Positions 3,051 to 31,717 of a stretch of DNA of 34,007 bases are shown here, piece after piece (the first letter of the stretch is position 1; each line of letters starts with the position of its first letter). Under the pieces are notes generated by a model. That model searched no databases. It was not told the DNA's origin and saw only the letters and a list, made by a program, of their open reading frames with translations. Source of the stretch: a bacterium (lineage in GTDB: Bacteria; BMS3Abin14); assembly GCA_029210545.1 (NCBI GenBank), contig JARGFV010000017.1:1-34007 (forward strand), in the 5' to 3' direction. The position numbers and the translations under genes were made by a program.

Positions 3051-3394
3051 CGATGCCCTCCGGTGTCAGGTGAGTTAACGTTCGGTTCTCTCGCAATTCT
3101 ACAATAGATGGCGGTCTTTATCAGCCATAAGGTAGACAGGGGCATCAATGCAGGATCGAAGCGCGAAGTGCGAAGGGAGGTATACGGAAGGCGATGGGCG
3201 AAGGGCCAAGTTAAGGGATTGTTCCTCGTTTTTGGACTTCGCTCTTCGCGCTGACATTGAAAGCCTCCGATCATGGGATCACCTTTCGAATTCCATAAAA
3301 CCTTTTAAATCCTAATAATTCTGGTAACTTCATTTGATAGAGTCGCAAAAAGTCCAGGCGAAACTTTTCCTTGGTCATTAATGTCCTGGGGAAA
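3051..3394. other. Gene-free spacer between rsmI and pfkA with word repeats
   Basis: I see no credible gene here. 3155-3205 holds GCGAAG-type words (GCGCGAAGTGCGAAGGG) and 3237-3253 their complement (TTCGCTCTTCGCGC). At 3335-3362 there is an inverted, decayed stem-3 module (TTGATAGAGTCGCAAAAAG). The spacer must contain the divergent promoter for rsmI, but I could not pick a convincing one. Confidence 0.6.
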
Positions 3395-3504
3395 GGGAAA
3401 AGCGTCGTTTCCCCTTTCCTTACAAATCAATGACTTATGGTGCGAGTCATTGATTTGGGCGCCCCGCGCGGGGCGCATTGATGGACTTTTTGCGAGTCCA
3501 TCAA
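3395..3504 (+). repeat. Modular multi-stem intergenic repeat, copy B (most complete)
   Basis: Four hairpins in series. Stem 0 is GGGAAA (3395-3400) with TTTCCC (3408-3413) around AGCGTCG. Stem 1 is AAATCAATGACT (3424-3435) with AGTCATTGATTT (3445-3456). Stem 2 is GCGCCCC (3459-3465) with GGGGCGC (3470-3476). Stem 3 is TTGATGGACT (3478-3487) with AGTCCATCAA (3495-3504). Relative to copy A, stem 2 carries a paired A-T to G-C change that preserves pairing. It ends 2 nt before the -35 box of pfkA. Confidence 0.9.
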
Positions 3505-4895: not shown

Positions 4896-5927
4896 ATGAC
4901 TGATAAAAATAATACTAAAGTGATTGGGAAAATGGCAGTCATCGGTGGAGGAAGCTGGGGTACTGCGCTGGCTATCCACTGCGCCAGGATCGGCATGCCG
5001 GTGAGCCTGTGGGTTTACGAGAAGGATCTGGCGGCCAGAATGGCCGATTCGAGGATAAATGACGTCTACCTGCCGGGGGTGACTCTGCCCGAAACCATTC
5101 AACCTACCGGGAGTTTTGCGGACTGCCTGTTGGGCGCCAGGATGGTGATGTCGGTAGTGCCGTCCCACGTGGCGCGAGCGGTATGGAGTGAGGCGCATTC
5201 CTACCTCCCCGTCGATGCCGTTATCATCAACGCCACCAAGGGGATCGAGGAGGGGACCTATCTCACCAGCTCGGGCGTCCTGGCTGAATCCATCGGGGGA
5301 AATATCCAGGACCGCATGGTAACGCTCTCAGGTCCCACCTTTGCCAGGGAAGTGGCCCAGGGACTCCCTGCGGCCGCTGTGATCGCAGCCGTGAAGGCCG
5401 ATCTGGCCCGGGACGTTCAGATGGCCCTGAACTCTGACAGCCTGCGGTTCTACACCAATGCCGATCCCGTGGGTGTCGAGGTCGCCGCTTCCCTCAAGAA
5501 CGTCATGGCCATCGCGGTAGGGATCTGTGACGGCCTGGAGCTTGGCCTTAACGCCAGGGCGGCCCTGATCACCAGGGGGCTTGCTGAGCTGGCAAGGCTC
5601 GGAACCGCTCTCGGGGCCGATCCCCTGACATTCCAGGGACTTGCCGGGGTGGGTGACCTGGTCCTGACCTGCACCGGAGACCTTTCCCGGAACCGGACAC
5701 TCGGCCTGCGGTTGGGAAAAGGTGAAAAGCTCGCCCGGATCACCGCATCCACCCCTATGGTGGCTGAGGGGGTCAAGACGACCCGGTCAGCCCACGGCCT
5801 GGCAGAGCGCGAGGGTGTGGACATGCCCATCACCGCGGAGATCTACCAGGTTCTCTACGGGTCCCGGGACCCGCTGGATGCGCTCAGGACGCTCATGAGC
5901 CGATCGCCCAAGAGCGAGAATGTATAA
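4896..5927 (+). CDS. gpsA: Glycerol-3-phosphate dehydrogenase [NAD(P)+]
   Basis: The 343-residue cytoplasmic enzyme reduces dihydroxyacetone phosphate to sn-glycerol-3-phosphate, the backbone of phospholipids. The N-terminal Rossmann motif is VIGGGSWGTALAIHCA (about 14-29). NATKGIEEGT carries a conserved active-site lysine, LSGPTFAREVAQGLP is the family signature, and SLKNVMAIAVGICDGLELGLNARAAL contains the catalytic lysine and substrate-binding asparagine/arginine. GLAGVGDLVLTCTGDLSRNRTLG is also diagnostic. The length is slightly above the usual 330 because of about 12 extra N-terminal residues; ATG 4932 (MAVIGGG) is an alternative start. It heads a cluster with pgpA, which uses the downstream product of the same lipid pathway. 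Confidence 0.96.
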   Translation: MTDKNNTKVIGKMAVIGGGSWGTALAIHCARIGMPVSLWVYEKDLAARMADSRINDVYLPGVTLPETIQPTGSFADCLLGARMVMSVVPSHVARAVWSEAHSYLPVDAVIINATKGIEEGTYLTSSGVLAESIGGNIQDRMVTLSGPTFAREVAQGLPAAAVIAAVKADLARDVQMALNSDSLRFYTNADPVGVEVAASLKNVMAIAVGICDGLELGLNARAALITRGLAELARLGTALGADPLTFQGLAGVGDLVLTCTGDLSRNRTLGLRLGKGEKLARITASTPMVAEGVKTTRSAHGLAEREGVDMPITAEIYQVLYGSRDPLDALRTLMSRSPKSENV

Positions 5928-13988: not shown

Positions 13989-13992
<4 letters not shown>

Positions 13993-16403
13993 GCTTTCAC
14001 AAGCCGGCGATGATGGCCCTGCTGCTCACCCTCGCCGCCACGACAACCGGGTGCTGGATCCCCCTGCCCGAAGAGACCGCCATCGTGGTGGAGGTCTTTG
14101 ACGCCCAGGGCGGTCCTGTGAAAGGCGTTTCGTTCATCCTTGACGGCAGCGACACGGTCATTACCGGCACCCAATTCAGTGATGGGCAGGTGTTTAAAAG
14201 CCTGAGTGTCGCGGGCCCGCATTACCTCCAGATGGAGATGGATTCCCTCACCGATCCCCAGGGGGGGACAGGATGGGTGCCCCTGGCAAGCCAGATCTCC
14301 GGAGAGTTGGTGCCTTTGTCCTTCGCCAACAGGCCCTTCGCCGGAGGCAGCGACCTCCTGACCGTTCCCGTCAACAAGGGGGAGATCACGGTGGTGAGCG
14401 TTTACCTTGCCGACGCCCTTGAGTCTCCCGCCGACAACCAGTGGCTCACCGACGGATCCAACCCTTCCGGTTTCAGGGCCGGCAACGACACCGACGAGTT
14501 CAGGGACAGCCCGGAACCGGTGTTCTGGTGGCGCCAGGATCCCTCCATGGGTGTGACCGTCGATTTCACGGTCCAGCTCTGGGAGGACGACGACACAGAT
14601 ACGCGATACCCCCTGGGCATCGTGGATCATGTCCAGTACGGGGCGGCCATGAACCCGGCCAACGCAGCCTACCAGGCGCCGGACTGGCAGGTGCCCCTGG
14701 CCGGGATCCAGCGGGCAGAGAGCGCATCCACGGTCAACCAGGTGGTCCTGTGGGCAAGCCAGGCTTTCGACGGAGCGGGTACACCCGCGACGGCTTACGA
14801 TCTTTATTACGCGCCGGCATCACACTGGAACGGGTCCGACCTGGAAAGCAACCCGGTTCTCAGGGACCTTTCCTACTCCATCGACGGTTCGGCAGCCAGG
14901 TTCCAGGTCGGTATAGGCACACTCAACGATGGCCTGGTCCTCAAAAACGGGGTTCCGTATACCTTTGCACTGGCAGCCCGGGACGAGGCTTCCAACCTGG
15001 ACACCGTTACTGCTGGAACACCGCGGGGTGAGCGCATGGCCGCACCGAGGGAAGAGGGCAATACCCTTGGCAGTGTCAGCGGCCTGGTGGTTACAGATAA
15101 CCCAGATGGCGGTACCCTGACGGTGGCGTTCAACTGTGCTCCCAGTGATTCGCTCCGGATCTATGCCGCGCCAAGTGGCGCGTTTAACACAAGGCCGTTC
15201 GACCCCAGGTTTGTCCGGGAAGAGATCTCCTGCCCGGGGTCTTCCCCGCATGATATCGAATACCTTCTCAGCGGCGTGACGTACTCCATCGGTATCGAGC
15301 CCTTCGATAGCGACGGGAACGTAGGCATTGCCTCCTCGATTATAGATGGAACGCCTTCCGCCAGCCTGTTTGAGACCGTTAAGCCGGCATTTCTCACGAC
15401 CCCTGTGCTTACCGTGGTCAAGCTGGGCGCGGGGGTGGTCCAGCTTAACATCGCGGCCGCGGCCGATTCATCGAACCTTATCCGAAGGGTTTACTGGGCG
15501 CCGGCTTCATGGACCAACGCTGAAGAAGCGATGGAGCATGTTAACCTGAGCGCGGCGGCCCAAACCTCAATTATTCTCTCCAATATACCCAGTTGGGTCC
15601 CTTATAACTACGTGGTGCGGGCCATCGACGAATACGGCAACTCTTCCATTGCCGATTCCCAGGTGACCATTGCCGAGCCGGCGGACACGACGGGTCCCGC
15701 CTGGGCCTCGGACGACCAGGCGTTTTACACAACCTTCAGCTACGCGGCAGGTTCCACCGTCTGGCCCCTCGGAGCGACCTGGAAATACGAGGGGTTCGCC
15801 CTCGGCCGGGATCCCGCCCGGGGAGAAGGCGAGTACGTGTGGAGGGTCATCCAGGAAAACCCGGATCGCCTGGTCACCAGGGAATCCAAGCTGGGCGCGT
15901 TTTACACCTGGTCGGGTTACTACTATGCCACCACTCAGAGCAGTGGTCTGTCCATGTCATCAGCCTCTACAAACGTCGCTCACCAGAACGTGTTCAGCTT
16001 TATCGAGAGTGCGGTGGGCACGGCGGACGTGATGGGCTTACCCTTTGACAGTGGTGATCCCGCTGGTTTTAAGCAGAGGACCGCGGCCTGGTTTGCCGGT
16101 TCTCTTGCCGCCGGGTCGAGCACTGCCAATCAGCTGAGGATCATCTATAACACCGATGAGGATGGTCAAGCGGTGGCCTACGCCGCAACGCCCTCCGGCT
16201 ACCTCGGGATCCTGAAGGTCCAGGCTGTGAACAAGCAGCGCCCCCTGCCCACCGCTGAGCCGCACCTCCAGGGGAAGGAGTTCCAGCTTTCCTATTACAC
16301 CGATGATGACGACCTGGTGACCATTCCCATCCCTCTTTTCGGAGGCGGGATCTACTATTTCGGGACGCTGGATGAGCCCGATTACCTGGATCCACTCTGG
16401 TAA
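13989..16403 (+). CDS. Large putative lipoprotein with three FnIII-like modules
   Basis: I do not recognise a named family for this 804-residue protein. Residues 1-22 form a lipoprotein-type signal (hydrophobic AMMALLLTLAA ending TTTGC, Cys22), a slightly atypical lipobox. Residues 30-120 resemble a carboxypeptidase-regulatory-like beta domain (VVEVFDAQGGPVKGVSFILDG). From about 240 to 560 there are three beta-rich modules with a shared motif: YYAPASHWN (about 273), IYAAPSGAFN (about 391) and VYWAPASWTN (about 500). Each is followed by FnIII-like endings such as YNYVVRAIDEYGNSS. The last 240 residues are aromatic and Gly-rich. It is translationally coupled to alaS (ATGA) and lies 27 nt before gspC, so a surface or secreted role tied to the T2SS is plausible but unproven. 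Confidence 0.75.
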
Positions 16404-21089: not shown

Positions 21090-22299
21090 GTACACCGTCC
21101 TCGACGGCAGGGGGAAGAGGAAGGCCGGGTTCGTCGAGGCGGCTTCTCAGCAGTCCGCGCGGGAGAGTCTCAAAAAGGACGGCCTGTATATCGTATCCCT
21201 GTCTTCGGCCGCCCAGGGCGGTTCGGTGGCATCCGGGGAATCGATCTCAATCGGCAGGCGCGTCAGCAGAGCGGACCTTGCTTCCATGACCCGCCAGCTC
21301 TCCACCCTTCTGCGTGCGGGCCTTCCCCTGGTGCAGGCGTTGGAGGCCCTGGTCGAGCAGCTTGAAAAACCGGCCCTTCGCAAGACCCTTTCAGGGGTCC
21401 GGAACCTGGTCAACGAGGGTGCGGCGTTTCACGAAGCCCTGGAACGGTACCCCCGGGTTTTTCCCGCCATGTATGTCCAGATGTGCCGGGCCGGCGAATC
21501 GGGAGGATTCCTCGAGCGGATCATGGAACGCCTTGCCGACACCCTGGAAAAAGAGGTGCGCCTCAGGGGAAGGGTCATGGCGGCCCTGGTCTACCCCATC
21601 GTGATGACGGTTCTCGGCGCGGTCTTCCTCCTTTTCCTTTTCGCCTACGTCGTGCCCCAGGTTGTGGGGATATTCGCCGATTTCGGCCGGGCGCTGCCCG
21701 TTCCAACACGGATCCTCCTTTTTGTGAGCGGACTGGTTTCAAGGTACTGGATCGTCATCCTGGCGGTTGTCCTTCTTGCCGTGATCGGATGGCGGTTCCT
21801 GTCGCGAAGCGGAAGGTTCGGGTCCTCTGTGGATGCACTGAGGCTTCGCTTTCCCATGGCCGGCAAGCTATCCCTCAAGGTGGCCACCGTGAGGTTGTCA
21901 CACATCCTGGGGACGCTCCTGGCCAGCGGTGTTCCCCTCATAAAATCCCTGGAGGTCGTGAGCGACGTCATGGGGAACAGGATCCTGTCCGACGCGGTAA
22001 GACAAGCCGCCGTCTCGGTTTCCCGGGGGGGCTCCCTTGCAGACGCGTTCCGCGCAAGCGGGGTGTTCCCCCCCCTTCTGCCGAGGATCGTGGCAGTGGG
22101 GGAACAGAGCGGTGAACTAGCGGAGATGCTCACGGGAGTAGCGGATGCCTATGAAGAGGAGGTCACCCGGACGGTGCAGGCCATGACGGCGGTCCTCGAA
22201 CCGGCGCTGATCCTTGTCATGGCGGGCGTTGTCCTGTTCGTGGTGGTGGCCATCCTGCTGCCGATCTTCGAAATGAACCAACTCGTTCGAACCGGGTGA
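21076..22299 (+). CDS. gspF: Type II secretion system inner-membrane protein GspF
   Basis: GspF is the polytopic platform protein bound by GspE. The 407 residues contain two homologous GspF domains, each ending in helices: MTRQLSTLLRAGLPLVQALEAL (first) and VRLSHILGTLLASGVPLIKSLEVV (second). TM helices are at about 172-196 (VYPIVMTVLGAVFLLFLFAYV), 223-242 and 376-398 (ALILVMAGVVLFVVVAILLPIF). The N-terminus, MPLFEYTVLDGRGKRKAGFVEA, is canonical. It is the last gene of the tightly packed recA-gspF unit, and the next T2SS gene (gspG) is 471 nt away across a repeat-rich gap. Confidence 0.96.
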   Translation: MPLFEYTVLDGRGKRKAGFVEAASQQSARESLKKDGLYIVSLSSAAQGGSVASGESISIGRRVSRADLASMTRQLSTLLRAGLPLVQALEALVEQLEKPALRKTLSGVRNLVNEGAAFHEALERYPRVFPAMYVQMCRAGESGGFLERIMERLADTLEKEVRLRGRVMAALVYPIVMTVLGAVFLLFLFAYVVPQVVGIFADFGRALPVPTRILLFVSGLVSRYWIVILAVVLLAVIGWRFLSRSGRFGSSVDALRLRFPMAGKLSLKVATVRLSHILGTLLASGVPLIKSLEVVSDVMGNRILSDAVRQAAVSVSRGGSLADAFRASGVFPPLLPRIVAVGEQSGELAEMLTGVADAYEEEVTRTVQAMTAVLEPALILVMAGVVLFVVVAILLPIFEMNQLVRTG

Positions 22300-22770
22300 A
22301 AAGGCTTTATTTACCACAGAGGACACCCTTCGATCACGCCATCAGCGTGACTCAGGGCAGGCAGAGGACACAGAGAAAGGCGAAAATCAGGGGGAAGGGT
22401 TCAGGCGTCTGCCGTAAACACCCTGAAGGGAGTTCACCACGGAGACACGGAGAAAATCGGAGGAAGACTGAACCTTGGGGAAAGCGTAACTTTTGTAGTA
22501 ACAATAAAAGCTTTAACGCAGATGGGCGGCTCGCTGGTAGGCTGCCCGACCCGCAGAGAACCGCAGTTAACCTGGTTCATGAATACCATCCAAGATCCAG
22601 GGTTTTAGCTGCGGCCCCCTGCGGCAGCGCCGGGAAAAGGGCGCTATCTGCCCTTCGACGTACTTACGTTTGCTCAGGGCTGTGAGCCTGTCGAACGGCG
22701 GCCCTCTGCGTTACAGCTTTTTAACATTTGGAATCTGGAATGTCGGATTTTAACTGTCAGGAGATTCGGT
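22300..22770. other. Repeat-filled gap between gspF and gspG
   Basis: There is no credible gene. 22316-22376 holds CCACAGAGGACAC and GGACACAGAGAAAGG words. 22433-22450 has TTCACCACGGAGACACGGAG, seen again in decayed form at 24336-24354 and 24597-24612. 22690-22700 has TGAGCCTGTCGAACGG, and 22733-22746 TTTGGAATCTGGAATG just before gspG. These interrupt what is normally one continuous gsp operon. gspG has a ribosome site (CAGGAG, 22758-22763). Confidence 0.7.
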
Positions 22771-23834: not shown

Positions 23835-24209
23835 ATGATCACGCAGCCGCGGAGGAGAAGGGGTGAATCCGGCTTCACCCTCCTGGAGGTCCTGGCGGCC
23901 CTTTCCATCCTGGGGCTGTCGCTCCTGGTGCTCCTCCAGACCGATGGGCTCAACTCGTCCAGGGCTCTTCATTCCCAACGTCTGCTGGGAGCCGTCAGGC
24001 TGGCTGGAGAACAGATGGAGGAGGTTTTCAGCTCCGGGACCGAAGGCCTGGCATCCGGGGAGGGACAGGATGAAGGCGGCCTGTACCGGTGGGAAAGAGT
24101 CGTGGTTGACACCGAGTATGCCGGGTTGAAGGAGGTGCAACTCACCGTCCGCTGGTCCGAGGGGAGGCGGGAGGAAAGCTACCTCGTCCTTGCCTACCTC
24201 CCGGAGTAA
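23835..24209 (+). CDS. gspI: Type II secretion system minor pseudopilin GspI
   Basis: The 124-residue precursor has leader MITQPRRRRGESG, then FTLLEVLAALSILGLSLLVLLQ with Glu at mature position 5. The rest (ALHSQRLLGAVRLAGEQMEE, RWERVVVDTEY, VQLTVRWSEGRREESYLVLAYLPE) has the short two-sheet GspI pattern; WSEG and the final LxxYLP are typical. GspI normally initiates tip assembly with GspJ and GspK. The start abuts the gspH stop. gspJ should follow but is replaced by a 647-nt gap. Confidence 0.92.
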   Translation: MITQPRRRRGESGFTLLEVLAALSILGLSLLVLLQTDGLNSSRALHSQRLLGAVRLAGEQMEEVFSSGTEGLASGEGQDEGGLYRWERVVVDTEYAGLKEVQLTVRWSEGRREESYLVLAYLPE

Positions 24210-24856
24210 TCCTGACGGACGGGAAAAACGGCGCTTTTCCCTTTCCCCAGAACATCAATGAGCCAGGAAAAGTCCCGGACTGAACTTTTTGCGACCCTGT
24301 CAAGTTTCGGCCGAGCGGCGCAAAGGCCTGGTTTTCACCACGGAGGCACGGAGAAATGCGTAGGAATGCTGAATGTCGGGGGATAAAGCTTGTCATCGCG
24401 AGCCCAAATATAGTCAATTTCCATATTCTTCCTCCCCTCATGTAGGCTTACTTCCTTACCCTTCCTCCCCCTGCCGAGGGGGGAGGATCAGAGGTGGGGG
24501 TGAAAGTGACTGCCGAGGGGGGAGGACCGAGGTGGGGGTGAAAGGAACCTGCCCAGGCGAAGCGATCTCAGGCGTATGCCGTCAGAGCGTAAAGAGCATT
24601 CACCACGGAGCTTGCTATAACAGAAAATCTCAAGCGTGTGAGCGGGGTGACTACCGTCTTGTGCCATTAAGGCGACGTTGTCGACCTTCGCACAGAGCAA
24701 GCTAGCGCCCCGTTTGCACCTTAGCCCGCATGAAGCAAGGTAAGGGCTCCGTTGAGACCCTCGAATCACCAGAGGCGGGCAAGGTGCTATAAATAAAAAG
24801 CTTGACTACAATAAACCAGGTCACAGAGAAAGACAAATGCGAAAAAGGTCGAGGGC
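24210..24856. other. Repeat-filled gap at the expected position of gspJ
   Basis: No pseudopilin-like sequence is seen in any frame on either strand. The 5' part (24222-24310) holds decayed modules of the intergenic repeat: a stem-0 relative (GGGAAAAACGGCGCTTTTCCC) and GAACTTTTTGCGACC. Next come TTCACCACGGAGGCACGGAG (24336-24354), the direct repeat at 24471-24547 and another ATTCACCACGGAG (24598-24610). 24640-24800 shows no known motif and no tRNA. The region just before gspK ends AAAAGGTCGAGGGC, a poor ribosome site. Confidence 0.75.
24471..24547. repeat. Tandem pair of a 38-nt GC-rich sequence, REP-like
   Basis: Two adjacent copies (24471-24509 and 24510-24547) each read CTGCCGAGGGGGGAGGA, then a GAGGTGGGGGTGAAAG ending. 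The first is preceded by TCCTCCCC, which pairs with GGGGAGGA to make a hairpin (about 24463-24486). Confidence 0.8.
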
Positions 24857-25867
24857 ATGATGGTGACTGAATACCCGGTGGCTGAATTCAAAAGGCAAGA
24901 GGGGATTGCCATGATCCTTGCCATCGTGGCGGTCTTCCTCCTTTCGGTCGCGGTCCTGGCGACACGGTCCGGCGTGGACCTGGCCTCCGGGATCGCGGCC
25001 AGTGCCGCGCACGAGACACAGGCGGGTTACCTGGCAAGATCCGGGTTGGCCATGGTCAGCGCCGCGCTGGCAGAGGATGATACAGCTGTGGACTCCTTCA
25101 ATGACGACTGGGCGGCTGCCAACGACATGGGGGCAGTTCCCATCGCGGATGTGGGCTGGGCTGTGGGAAAGGTCACCGACGAGGAAGGGAAGCTGAACGT
25201 CCTGGACCTTGTCAACAAGGATCGGATGTCCGATGAGCTTACCGAACTGGCCGAGATCCGCCTCCTGGATCTTCTCATGATCATCGGCCTGACAGAATCC
25301 AGGGCCGATGAGATCGTTGACAGTCTCGTGGACTGGATGGATGAGGACAGCACCGTGACCGGTTTCGGGGCGGAGGATTCCTACTACGGGTCCCTGGTCC
25401 CGGAGTACAGCTGCCCGGACACTTATTTGATGACCGTTGACGAGCTGGCACTGGTCAAGGGGATCGGGCCGATCCTGCTGTACCAGGGTGAGGGTGAGGT
25501 ACCGCCCCTTCTGCGGTTTGTCACCGTTTACGGGGATAAGGCCGGTGACTACCGGAAAGTGAACATCAATACGGCCCCGGTGGAAGTCCTCATGGCGCTG
25601 GCTCCGGAGATAGACCGGCAGCTGGCAGAGGAGATCGTGGCCTCCAGGGACACCGAACCGTTCACTTCCCCCGCCCAGATCAAGGACGTGCCCGGCTTTC
25701 CCGGGGATCAGTTCTACAGCGAGACCCTCGCTTCCCTGGTCGACGTTTCCAGCTCCCATTTTTCGGCCAGGATCACCGGTGAAACGCCGTCGGCTTCCAG
25801 CCAGGCCTTCGGCGTCTTCAGAAGGACAGGTCAGGCGGTCAAGCTTGTTTACTACAAATCCTTTTGA
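24857..25867 (+). CDS. gspK: Type II secretion system minor pseudopilin GspK
   Basis: The 336-residue precursor caps the pseudopilus tip. Leader MMVTEYPVAEFKRQEG is cleaved before IAMILAIVAVFLLSVAVLA; position +5 is Leu, and the absence of Glu5 is normal for GspK. After the helix, GYLARSGLAMVSAALAEDD leads to the alpha domain with EGKLNVLDLVNKDRM, VDSLVDWMDEDSTV, VNINTAPVEVLMAL and helix-hairpin-helix-like VDELALVKGIG segments, all family signatures. The stop codon lies within the left arm of a perfect 25-bp inverted repeat. It is separated from gspI by the repeat-filled gspJ gap and from gspL by 285 nt of inverted repeats. Confidence 0.94.
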   Translation: MMVTEYPVAEFKRQEGIAMILAIVAVFLLSVAVLATRSGVDLASGIAASAAHETQAGYLARSGLAMVSAALAEDDTAVDSFNDDWAAANDMGAVPIADVGWAVGKVTDEEGKLNVLDLVNKDRMSDELTELAEIRLLDLLMIIGLTESRADEIVDSLVDWMDEDSTVTGFGAEDSYYGSLVPEYSCPDTYLMTVDELALVKGIGPILLYQGEGEVPPLLRFVTVYGDKAGDYRKVNINTAPVEVLMALAPEIDRQLAEEIVASRDTEPFTSPAQIKDVPGFPGDQFYSETLASLVDVSSSHFSARITGETPSASSQAFGVFRRTGQAVKLVYYKSF

Positions 25868-29665: not shown

Positions 29666-31717
29666 GTGAAGAGAGTTAGCCGGACAGGTATCATAATTTC
29701 CGGGATCGCCCTTGGACTGTTCCTTTTTTGGGGGGCGGGTACCCTTGAGGGAAAACCGGAGAAGGGCAGGCCCGACTACGTCCCGGGCCGTGTCCTCGTC
29801 AAGTTCAGACCCGGATTGCAGGGGGACCTTAGAAGTGGCGCCGTTCATGCCATGGGAGCCCGGCAGCGGGAACGGCTCCCCCTGGTGGACGTAGAGGTGT
29901 TGAACCTGCCGCCGGGGCTTTCAGTTGAAGATGCTATCGATCGTCTAAAAAAAAATCCCAATGTCCTTTTTGCGGAGCCGGATCGTTATGTAACTCCTTT
30001 GGGGACGATTTCCCCCGTAGACCCAAAATATCCCAGCCAGTGGTATCTGAACACAAATCCGGTTTCCGATTCCATGGGGTCAATCGACGTGGATATCGAC
30101 GCCCCGGAAGGGTGGGCGATCCTTTCATCCCTGGAGGCCGGCATCGGTACGACCCTGCAGAGCATAGTTGCCGTTGTGGATAGCGGGTGCGGTGATACCG
30201 CATACGCCTATACGGACAATGCCGTGGGTTATATTCCCGGACATCCGGATCTTCTGAACAGTCTCCTGTACACAAACACTGACGAAATAGGGGCCACGGC
30301 GGGGTCCGACGACGACGCCAACGGGTTGAAAGATGACTACAACGGTTGGGATTATCTCGCCAGCCCCGAAGACAACAAGCCCGCTGGTGCAGATTCTCAC
30401 GGCACCTTTATCTGCGGGATTGTGGGAGCAGCGTGGAACGATACAGGAATAGCGGGAATAGGCAGTGAATATTTGCGGATTCTTCCTTTAAGGGTAGCTG
30501 GTACCACCAGCAGCATAGCTAAAGGTATCGTTTATTCGGTCCAGAGGAAACTCAGAGGGGATCCTGTGGCAGGAATAAACCTCAGTTGGGGTCTAAGGTC
30601 CAACGACTCGACATTGAGGAGTGCTATCCAGGAGGCGGAGGCGGCTAGTGTGATGGTTTACGCGGCCGCCGGTAATGATGAGCAATTTCCATGGTACGAC
30701 AACGATGTTACTCCATTGTATCCTTCGTCGTATTCCACGATGTTAAATAATGTCATTGGTGTTGCCGCCACCGATTCTTCGGGTGATTTTACGAGTTTTA
30801 CACATTTCGGACGTAACTCTGTGCAGGTTGCGGCTCCAGGACAAAATATCACTTCTACTACACTGAACAGCCAGGGTAGTTGGGCAACAGGTAATGGGAC
30901 ATCTTTTTCGGCTCCCATTGTCGCTTCTGTAGGGGCGCTTGTCGCTGCGGTTGATACAACCATTTCCCTGGAACAGGTAAAAAACAGGCTTGAACTTGGT
31001 GGAACCTTTGATGAAATGTTGACTGAAAAGATCGCCTGGGAGAGGCGGGTCAACCTGGCGGGGTCTTTGGCTCCCTTCTATCCTTTTTCAGGACTGGCAC
31101 CGATCTATTCGACAGACACACCTTTGTACAGCTACACAGACAGGATCGGCCTGCTCTATGGCGATATTGTTCAGGCTATCAGCAGCAGCAACAGCATTGC
31201 CGTAATGGACACCGACTCAGCGGGTAATTGGTATGTCAGGCCTTACAGCCCCGGCATGGTGAGTTTCACAATCACCTATTCGGGGGGGGCGGTATCGGCC
31301 TACAGGACGGGAACCTGGCGGGTAACCGGGATCAAACCTTTTTCAGCAACGATTTATATTGGTCAAACATTGGATTTTGAAAATAACACGGGAACCAGTG
31401 GAACATGGTTTGTGGAAAATCCACCCATCGGCGATATTGATCCTTCTTCAGGGCATTTCGTTGCACAAAGTGAGGGAGTGACCAGCGTTTATCTCATGTC
31501 CAATGGAACGCGATTGGACCAGAGTGGGAATGTTGTTGTTGAAGTGAGACCGATTTCATCAAATGGCGCAGGCTGCTGCGGAGCGACAGCGCCGCCCGGG
31601 GATCCTTACATTCCAGGGGCAGTGGAAATGACACTGATGGCTGTTCTTTTGTTGTTTGTGAGAAGAAGGTACCTGGCGGAAGTGAGTGCAAAGTCCAAAG
31701 TCCAAAGCCCAAGGTGA
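29666..31717 (+). CDS. Secreted S8 (subtilisin-like) serine protease with C-terminal anchor tail
   Basis: GTG start; 683 residues. Signal peptide about 5-28 (IIISGIALGLFLFWGAGTLEG), prodomain about 30-110, then a subtilase domain. Catalytic triad: D172 (VAVVDSG), H245 (DSHGTFICG), S413 (GNGTSFSAP); the oxyanion Asn is in VYAAAGNDE. After the catalytic domain, a beta-rich region (about 480-630) has Ig-like sequence (NTGTSGTWFVENPPIGDIDPSSGHFVA). The C-terminus holds GCCGATAPPG (C637, C638), a hydrophobic helix (about 652-668, ending RRR) and a short tail. This is a tripartite tail like bacterial sorting tags. The final SAKSKVQSPR is translated from a CCAAAGT word repeat. Substrate unknown; proximity suggests T2SS export. 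Codon usage looks AT-richer than neighbours. Confidence 0.9.
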   Translation: MKRVSRTGIIISGIALGLFLFWGAGTLEGKPEKGRPDYVPGRVLVKFRPGLQGDLRSGAVHAMGARQRERLPLVDVEVLNLPPGLSVEDAIDRLKKNPNVLFAEPDRYVTPLGTISPVDPKYPSQWYLNTNPVSDSMGSIDVDIDAPEGWAILSSLEAGIGTTLQSIVAVVDSGCGDTAYAYTDNAVGYIPGHPDLLNSLLYTNTDEIGATAGSDDDANGLKDDYNGWDYLASPEDNKPAGADSHGTFICGIVGAAWNDTGIAGIGSEYLRILPLRVAGTTSSIAKGIVYSVQRKLRGDPVAGINLSWGLRSNDSTLRSAIQEAEAASVMVYAAAGNDEQFPWYDNDVTPLYPSSYSTMLNNVIGVAATDSSGDFTSFTHFGRNSVQVAAPGQNITSTTLNSQGSWATGNGTSFSAPIVASVGALVAAVDTTISLEQVKNRLELGGTFDEMLTEKIAWERRVNLAGSLAPFYPFSGLAPIYSTDTPLYSYTDRIGLLYGDIVQAISSSNSIAVMDTDSAGNWYVRPYSPGMVSFTITYSGGAVSAYRTGTWRVTGIKPFSATIYIGQTLDFENNTGTSGTWFVENPPIGDIDPSSGHFVAQSEGVTSVYLMSNGTRLDQSGNVVVEVRPISSNGAGCCGATAPPGDPYIPGAVEMTLMAVLLLFVRRRYLAEVSAKSKVQSPR

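Follow-up and report, generated by a model that had tools for sequence, protein, structure and literature searches.

Very probable relocation of gspJ out of a gspC-N type II secretion operon with dispersed repeats between gspI and gspK

The tip complex of the type II secretion pseudopilus has the I-J pair as its core in Pseudomonas, and secretion stops when either protein is lost (PMC6211770). The retention of gspJ, be it at a distance, is therefore expected of a working system. Such a distance has a precedent in Acinetobacter, where the T2SS genes are distributed over five distinct gene clusters at distant loci and yet encode a functional system (PMC4713064). The locus described here resembles that arrangement in that components of one machine are encoded at distant loci, but it differs in two respects: it is not the whole set that is split into five groups but one minor pseudopilin gene that lies off an otherwise complete operon, and, unlike in Acinetobacter, gspJ is found at different places in different branches. 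Compared to the canonical gspC-N operon, all the other components and their order are the same, and gspJ itself is located upstream of gspK in two relatives (G001 and G007) and in nearly all outgroups examined; here, gspJ alone has been removed and sits as a single gene at an unrelated locus.

The window, i.e., the whole stretch of 34,007 nucleotides that was analyzed, is the entire contig C17 of a draft genome (G000; 2.72 Mb, 241 contigs, 97.5% complete). It contains a gsp operon in the order C-D-E-F-G-H-I-K-L-M-N, all these components being recognized by family models, and GspN being of the Leptospira type (TIGR04411). The canonical gspJ between gspI and gspK is not found, and both genes are separated by 647 nt (Table 1). 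The original prediction, according to which gspJ is absent from an ordered cluster and replaced by a repeat-filled gap of this length, was confirmed by family models, BLAST, tblastn and profile searches, and its coordinates are right. The gap is also, as predicted, devoid of any pseudopilin signal. The class III prepilin motif is absent from every ORF of the gap, and so is the more specific G-FTLLE pattern. On its six frames, a GspJ-family profile did not rise above noise (best score -3.0 bits, E about 1). No match better than E=0.2 was obtained when ten GspJ proteins were compared with the gap by tblastn. The similarity between the length of the gap and that of gspJ is best taken as a coincidence. 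Elsewhere in the window, an 804-aa ORF between alaS and gspC (13989-16403) has no Pfam match, and a gene located just after gspN (29666-31717) encodes a protease of the subtilase family with a fervidolysin-type prodomain, which could plausibly be exported by the secretion system.

Table 1. Position in the window of the genes, junctions and repeats discussed in the text.
Feature	Position	Strand	Description
F-G junction (gspF-gspG)	22300..22770		471 bp, vs roughly 20-250 bp in relatives; R3-type repeat
gspI	23835..24209	+	immediately precedes the gap; TIGR01707 E=5.1e-9, N_methyl above its cut-off
Gap at the ancestral gspJ position	24210..24856		dispersed-repeat mosaic, without pseudopilin or gspJ remnant
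R1 dispersed repeat	24222..24305	+	~80 bp, two short hairpin-like arms, left end truncated here
R3-type repeat	24334..24381	+	TTCACCACGGAG...; related piece in F-G junction, 81% over 48 nt
R2 repeat	24386..24545	+	CTTCCTCCCC ... GGGGGAGGA-GAGGTGGGGGTGAAAG; match in own-genome search
R4 element	24592..24829	+	238 bp; one other copy at C15:5503-5738 (L076), minus strand, 95%
gspK	24857..25867	+	first gene after the gap; NF037980 145 bits, cut-off 130

When the gap was compared with its own genome by BLAST, about 65 further matches were obtained. In this comparison, R1 was delimited to ~82 bp (24222-24303). The R1 repeat, whose right end is sharp (GCGACCCTATCAA; boundary also given as GACTTTTTGCGACYCTRTCAA), is present in about 40 copies in G000, many of them less than 200 bp from contig ends, and its family is also represented in the window at 3334-3410. 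Related matches are found in G003, G006 and G007 but, at the same threshold, none in G001, G002, G005, G008 or G009, and the R1 core is found in other genomes of the bacterial family too. R1 behaves like a REP/MITE-type element. R2 contains two occurrences of a 28-nt unit, at 24479-24506 and 24517-24544, and the R3-type repeat is seen at two places in the gap (24334 and 24599). R4 is limited to the two copies of G000, the second of which sits between pyrC and carA, and is absent from the other genomes of the bacterial family. Its fold is more stable than that of shuffled sequence (z -2.6), and it may represent a non-autonomous mobile element of small size; no Rfam family matched it, its assignment to a known structured RNA such as HEARO is thus without Rfam support, and no match was obtained with plasmids for R4 or with viral contigs for its 23-nt core. 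An Rfam search over the window and a permissive run over the gap gave no credible family, the weak matches being low-complexity ones to eukaryotic, viral and archaeal families. The junction between gspF and gspG is also enlarged in the window, yet no gene is missing there. This junction carries a CACCACGGAG-type repeat; a 129-aa ORF within it (22296-22685) was considered and rejected as a gene, as it is not conserved in relatives.

Gene order was then compared with that of 11 genomes from the same bacterial family (G001-G011). Only two of them, G001 and G007, keep gspJ between gspI and gspK, and the distance from the gspI stop to a conserved gspK motif is there of 687-719 nt. In the eight other relatives in which the junction is assembled (it is not in G010), the gap is closed, this distance being of 40-41 nt in G002, G003, G006, G008 and G011, and of 51-62 nt in G004, G005 and G009. 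The genome of the window (G000) belongs to a clade with G002, G003, G006, G008 and probably G011; in these relatives, the gspI stop and the gspK open frame overlap or nearly so. As the junction is closed in these eight relatives, the repeats most likely entered it after gspJ had left, and the repeat-filled gap is most likely a later, unremarkable build-up of the common dispersed repeats of the genome. The original prediction had considered, as a refutation, the existence of relatives that never had gspJ in this position: this holds for the clade relatives of the window, but G001 and G007 keep it there.

In the window, the same distance is of 692 nt, close to that of the genomes keeping gspJ in place, and R1 copies are often situated close to contig ends, as would be anticipated if gspJ really belonged to the gap and had been removed by an assembly collapse at the repeats. 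Such a collapse is nevertheless highly improbable: the assembly already has the start of gspJ at another locus (see below), and gspJ is found between gspI and gspK in none of the five clade relatives with an assembled junction, of which G002 and G008 are single-contig.

The search of the rest of the genome with GspJ profiles, recommended in the original prediction, was successful with one of two models. TIGR01711, a model that also covers the GspJ N-terminus, detected an incomplete gspJ at C139:5511-5615, the match stopping 17 bases from the end of the contig. PF11612 gave no match, because the contig ends inside the gene and the fragment is too short for the domain. The 5' part of gspJ extends over C139:5463-5632 and comprises the first 56 codons from a Met at 5463, translated as MMPARKASTHRNGSNSGFTLIEVMTAVTILALMAAMTFTVVFGAVKRSRVIDARSE. 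No stop codon interrupts its frame as far as the contig extends, and the truncation is therefore an assembly limit. The remaining ~160 codons, i.e., the 3' three quarters of the gene, were found nowhere in the G000 draft assembly; the profile used in this search included the own fragment, and its E-value for C139 was set aside. The C139 protein shares 60-74% identity with the clade GspJ proteins (E 1e-16 to 1e-18), the best of the other pilins of the genome giving 35% (E 2e-6).

The detached protein is a genuine GspJ homologue. All detached copies, including that of C139, have a class III prepilin leader (G-FTL-E), in the form (G/A)FTL(I/V)E then ILA..., and a hydrophobic helix. N_methyl and TIGR01711 match all 11 GspJ proteins, and the T2SSJ domain PF11612 matches ten of the 11 at E<=0.01; for member 1 of the set, the PF11612 score is of 32.5 bits, over the cut-off of 28, and TIGR01711 is the top model. 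The equivalog cut-off of TIGR01711 (64.85 bits) is not reached, the best match in the bacterial family being of 47.7 bits, but the in-operon GspJ of G001 and G007 are also below it, so that this cut-off cannot separate detached from canonical proteins. In the PDB, the GspJ profile retrieves EpsJ at E=3e-7. The GspJ fold is also predicted for the G005 copy by an AlphaFold model (pLDDT 80.6), all 17 PDB matches of which at E<=0.001 come from EpsI:EpsJ, XcpVW(X), XcpW or XcpGHIJK entries. With regard to the GspI-J-K tip complex (EpsI:EpsJ 2RET; XcpVWX 5VTM; PMC6211770), the detached protein thus matches EpsJ by profile, and the G005 copy would, as modeled, match both EpsJ and XcpW by fold; the difference is that GspJ is here encoded away from its GspI and GspK partners.

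The original prediction had left three options open, namely that gspJ was lost by recombination between repeats, that it was moved elsewhere, or that another pseudopilin replaces it. As to the last one, the genome does encode other minor pilins (on C8, C62 and C30), and one of these, e.g., a type IV pilus minor pilin, might take the place of GspJ in the tip. However, the clustering of these minor pilins points to type IV pili (C8 has several together), and a replacement is unnecessary since a real GspJ exists; it almost certainly did not take place.

A TIGR01711 search of the bacterial family revealed a full-length gspJ off the operon in G002, G003, G004, G005, G008, G009 and G010. That of G006 is a weaker match but is full length once translated, and no gspJ was found in G011, a fragmented draft. 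In the window's clade, the comparison of gene order places the detached gene at the liv-guaB locus: gspJ lies between livF and guaB in G002 and G006 (liv operon-gspJ-guaB), and just before guaB in G003 and G008 (gspJ-guaB-guaA). A complete gspJ thus precedes guaB in all four clade relatives where it was found, the transporter being seen directly upstream in two of the four. In G000, the branched-chain amino-acid ABC transporter operon of C139 lies upstream of gspJ, which follows livF and is interrupted by the contig end; guaB, located on a separate contig (C35), has a different upstream neighbor, and the complete liv-gspJ-guaB arrangement is therefore not conserved in this genome. In three genomes outside the clade (G001, G004 and G009), the livF-guaB interval contains no gspJ.

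A terminator-like hairpin is present upstream of gspJ in both genomes scanned (G000 and G002), in G000 between the last transporter gene and gspJ, and the gene is therefore probably a separate transcription unit in these two genomes. The interval between gspJ and guaB repeatedly contains, in the window's clade, a TTGACA-like promoter as well as a GC-rich hairpin with a T-run (CCCCGCCCCGCGCGGGGTTTT); located upstream of guaB (L110, L112, L107 and L108), they resemble a guaB leader.

These landing sites also bear on a complete loss of gspJ, in which recombination between dispersed repeats would have deleted the gene and left the 56-codon piece of C139 as a dead fragment. The repeats do occupy the exact place of gspJ, and the C139 piece is incomplete, with an R1-type repeat just upstream. 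Nevertheless, its frame runs open to the contig end and it lies in a synteny where relatives have a full gspJ. Furthermore, gspI and gspK abut without any repeat between them in the relatives lacking gspJ at this place, and R4 is found in G000 only. The proximity of a distant gspJ to other repeats, which the original prediction had suggested looking for, is only partly observed: gspJ is preceded by an R1-type core in G000 and flanked by one on each side in G003, but none lies within 900 bp of the detached gspJ of G002, G006 and G008. A loss through the repeats is thus improbable.

Among the three options, it is the relocation that is favored, by the gspJ of C139, the synteny of the relatives and the empty sites of the outgroups. 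gspJ has very probably moved out of the operon without being lost, the repeats entering later, a reading supported by the presence of the gene, homology, synteny, empty sites and closed junctions. In the ancestor of the clade, gspJ would have left its slot between gspI and gspK, then landed between the livF end of the branched-chain amino-acid ABC transporter operon and guaB, the gsp operon then closing up to I-K. Only later, in the lineage of the window's genome, would R1, R2, R3 and R4 have entered the closed I-K junction, as at the F-G junction; we infer this order of events for the window's own lineage. In the genome of the window, gspJ would be intact, expressed and functional. The product of the distant gene should remain able to assemble with GspI and GspK at the tip of the pseudopilus, so that no component of the type II secretion system is expected to be lacking.

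Outside the clade, gspJ is located at other places. It lies just before a HIT-family gene in G004 and G009, preceded in G009 by a small zinc-ribbon-like gene, and the zinc-ribbon and HIT genes of G007 and G010 have no gspJ between them. The neighbors of gspJ in G005 are a cupin gene on one side and a 4Fe-4S protein gene on the other, the latter gene also following gspJ in G010. Four positions of gspJ thus coexist in one bacterial family (operon, liv-guaB, zinc ribbon-HIT and cupin-4Fe-4S). The same groups are obtained in the GspJ, GspK and concatenated trees, the clade of the window being recovered in each with 100/100 support, and the descent of gspJ therefore looks vertical. If its landing sites are counted, gspJ appears, from gene order, to have relocated at least three times. 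It is more doubtful whether it left the operon independently at least two times in this family, for a different place each time, which would suggest an advantage and not chance. A single exit could not be rejected (p-AU 0.095), and the outgroup rooting is weak, with long branches and two poorly trimmed outgroup rows. If the exits were nonetheless independent, they could reflect an advantage in expressing a tip pseudopilin apart from the other genes, for example to set its dosage.

Finally, these results correct the tempting reading of a secretion machine devoid of an essential tip subunit. They illustrate how a gene can seem to be missing when a draft contig ends inside it and the profile used models the protein in its later part only. 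The different positions of gspJ in this family may also constitute a small natural experiment on whether it matters that the I-J-K tip genes are linked in one operon.
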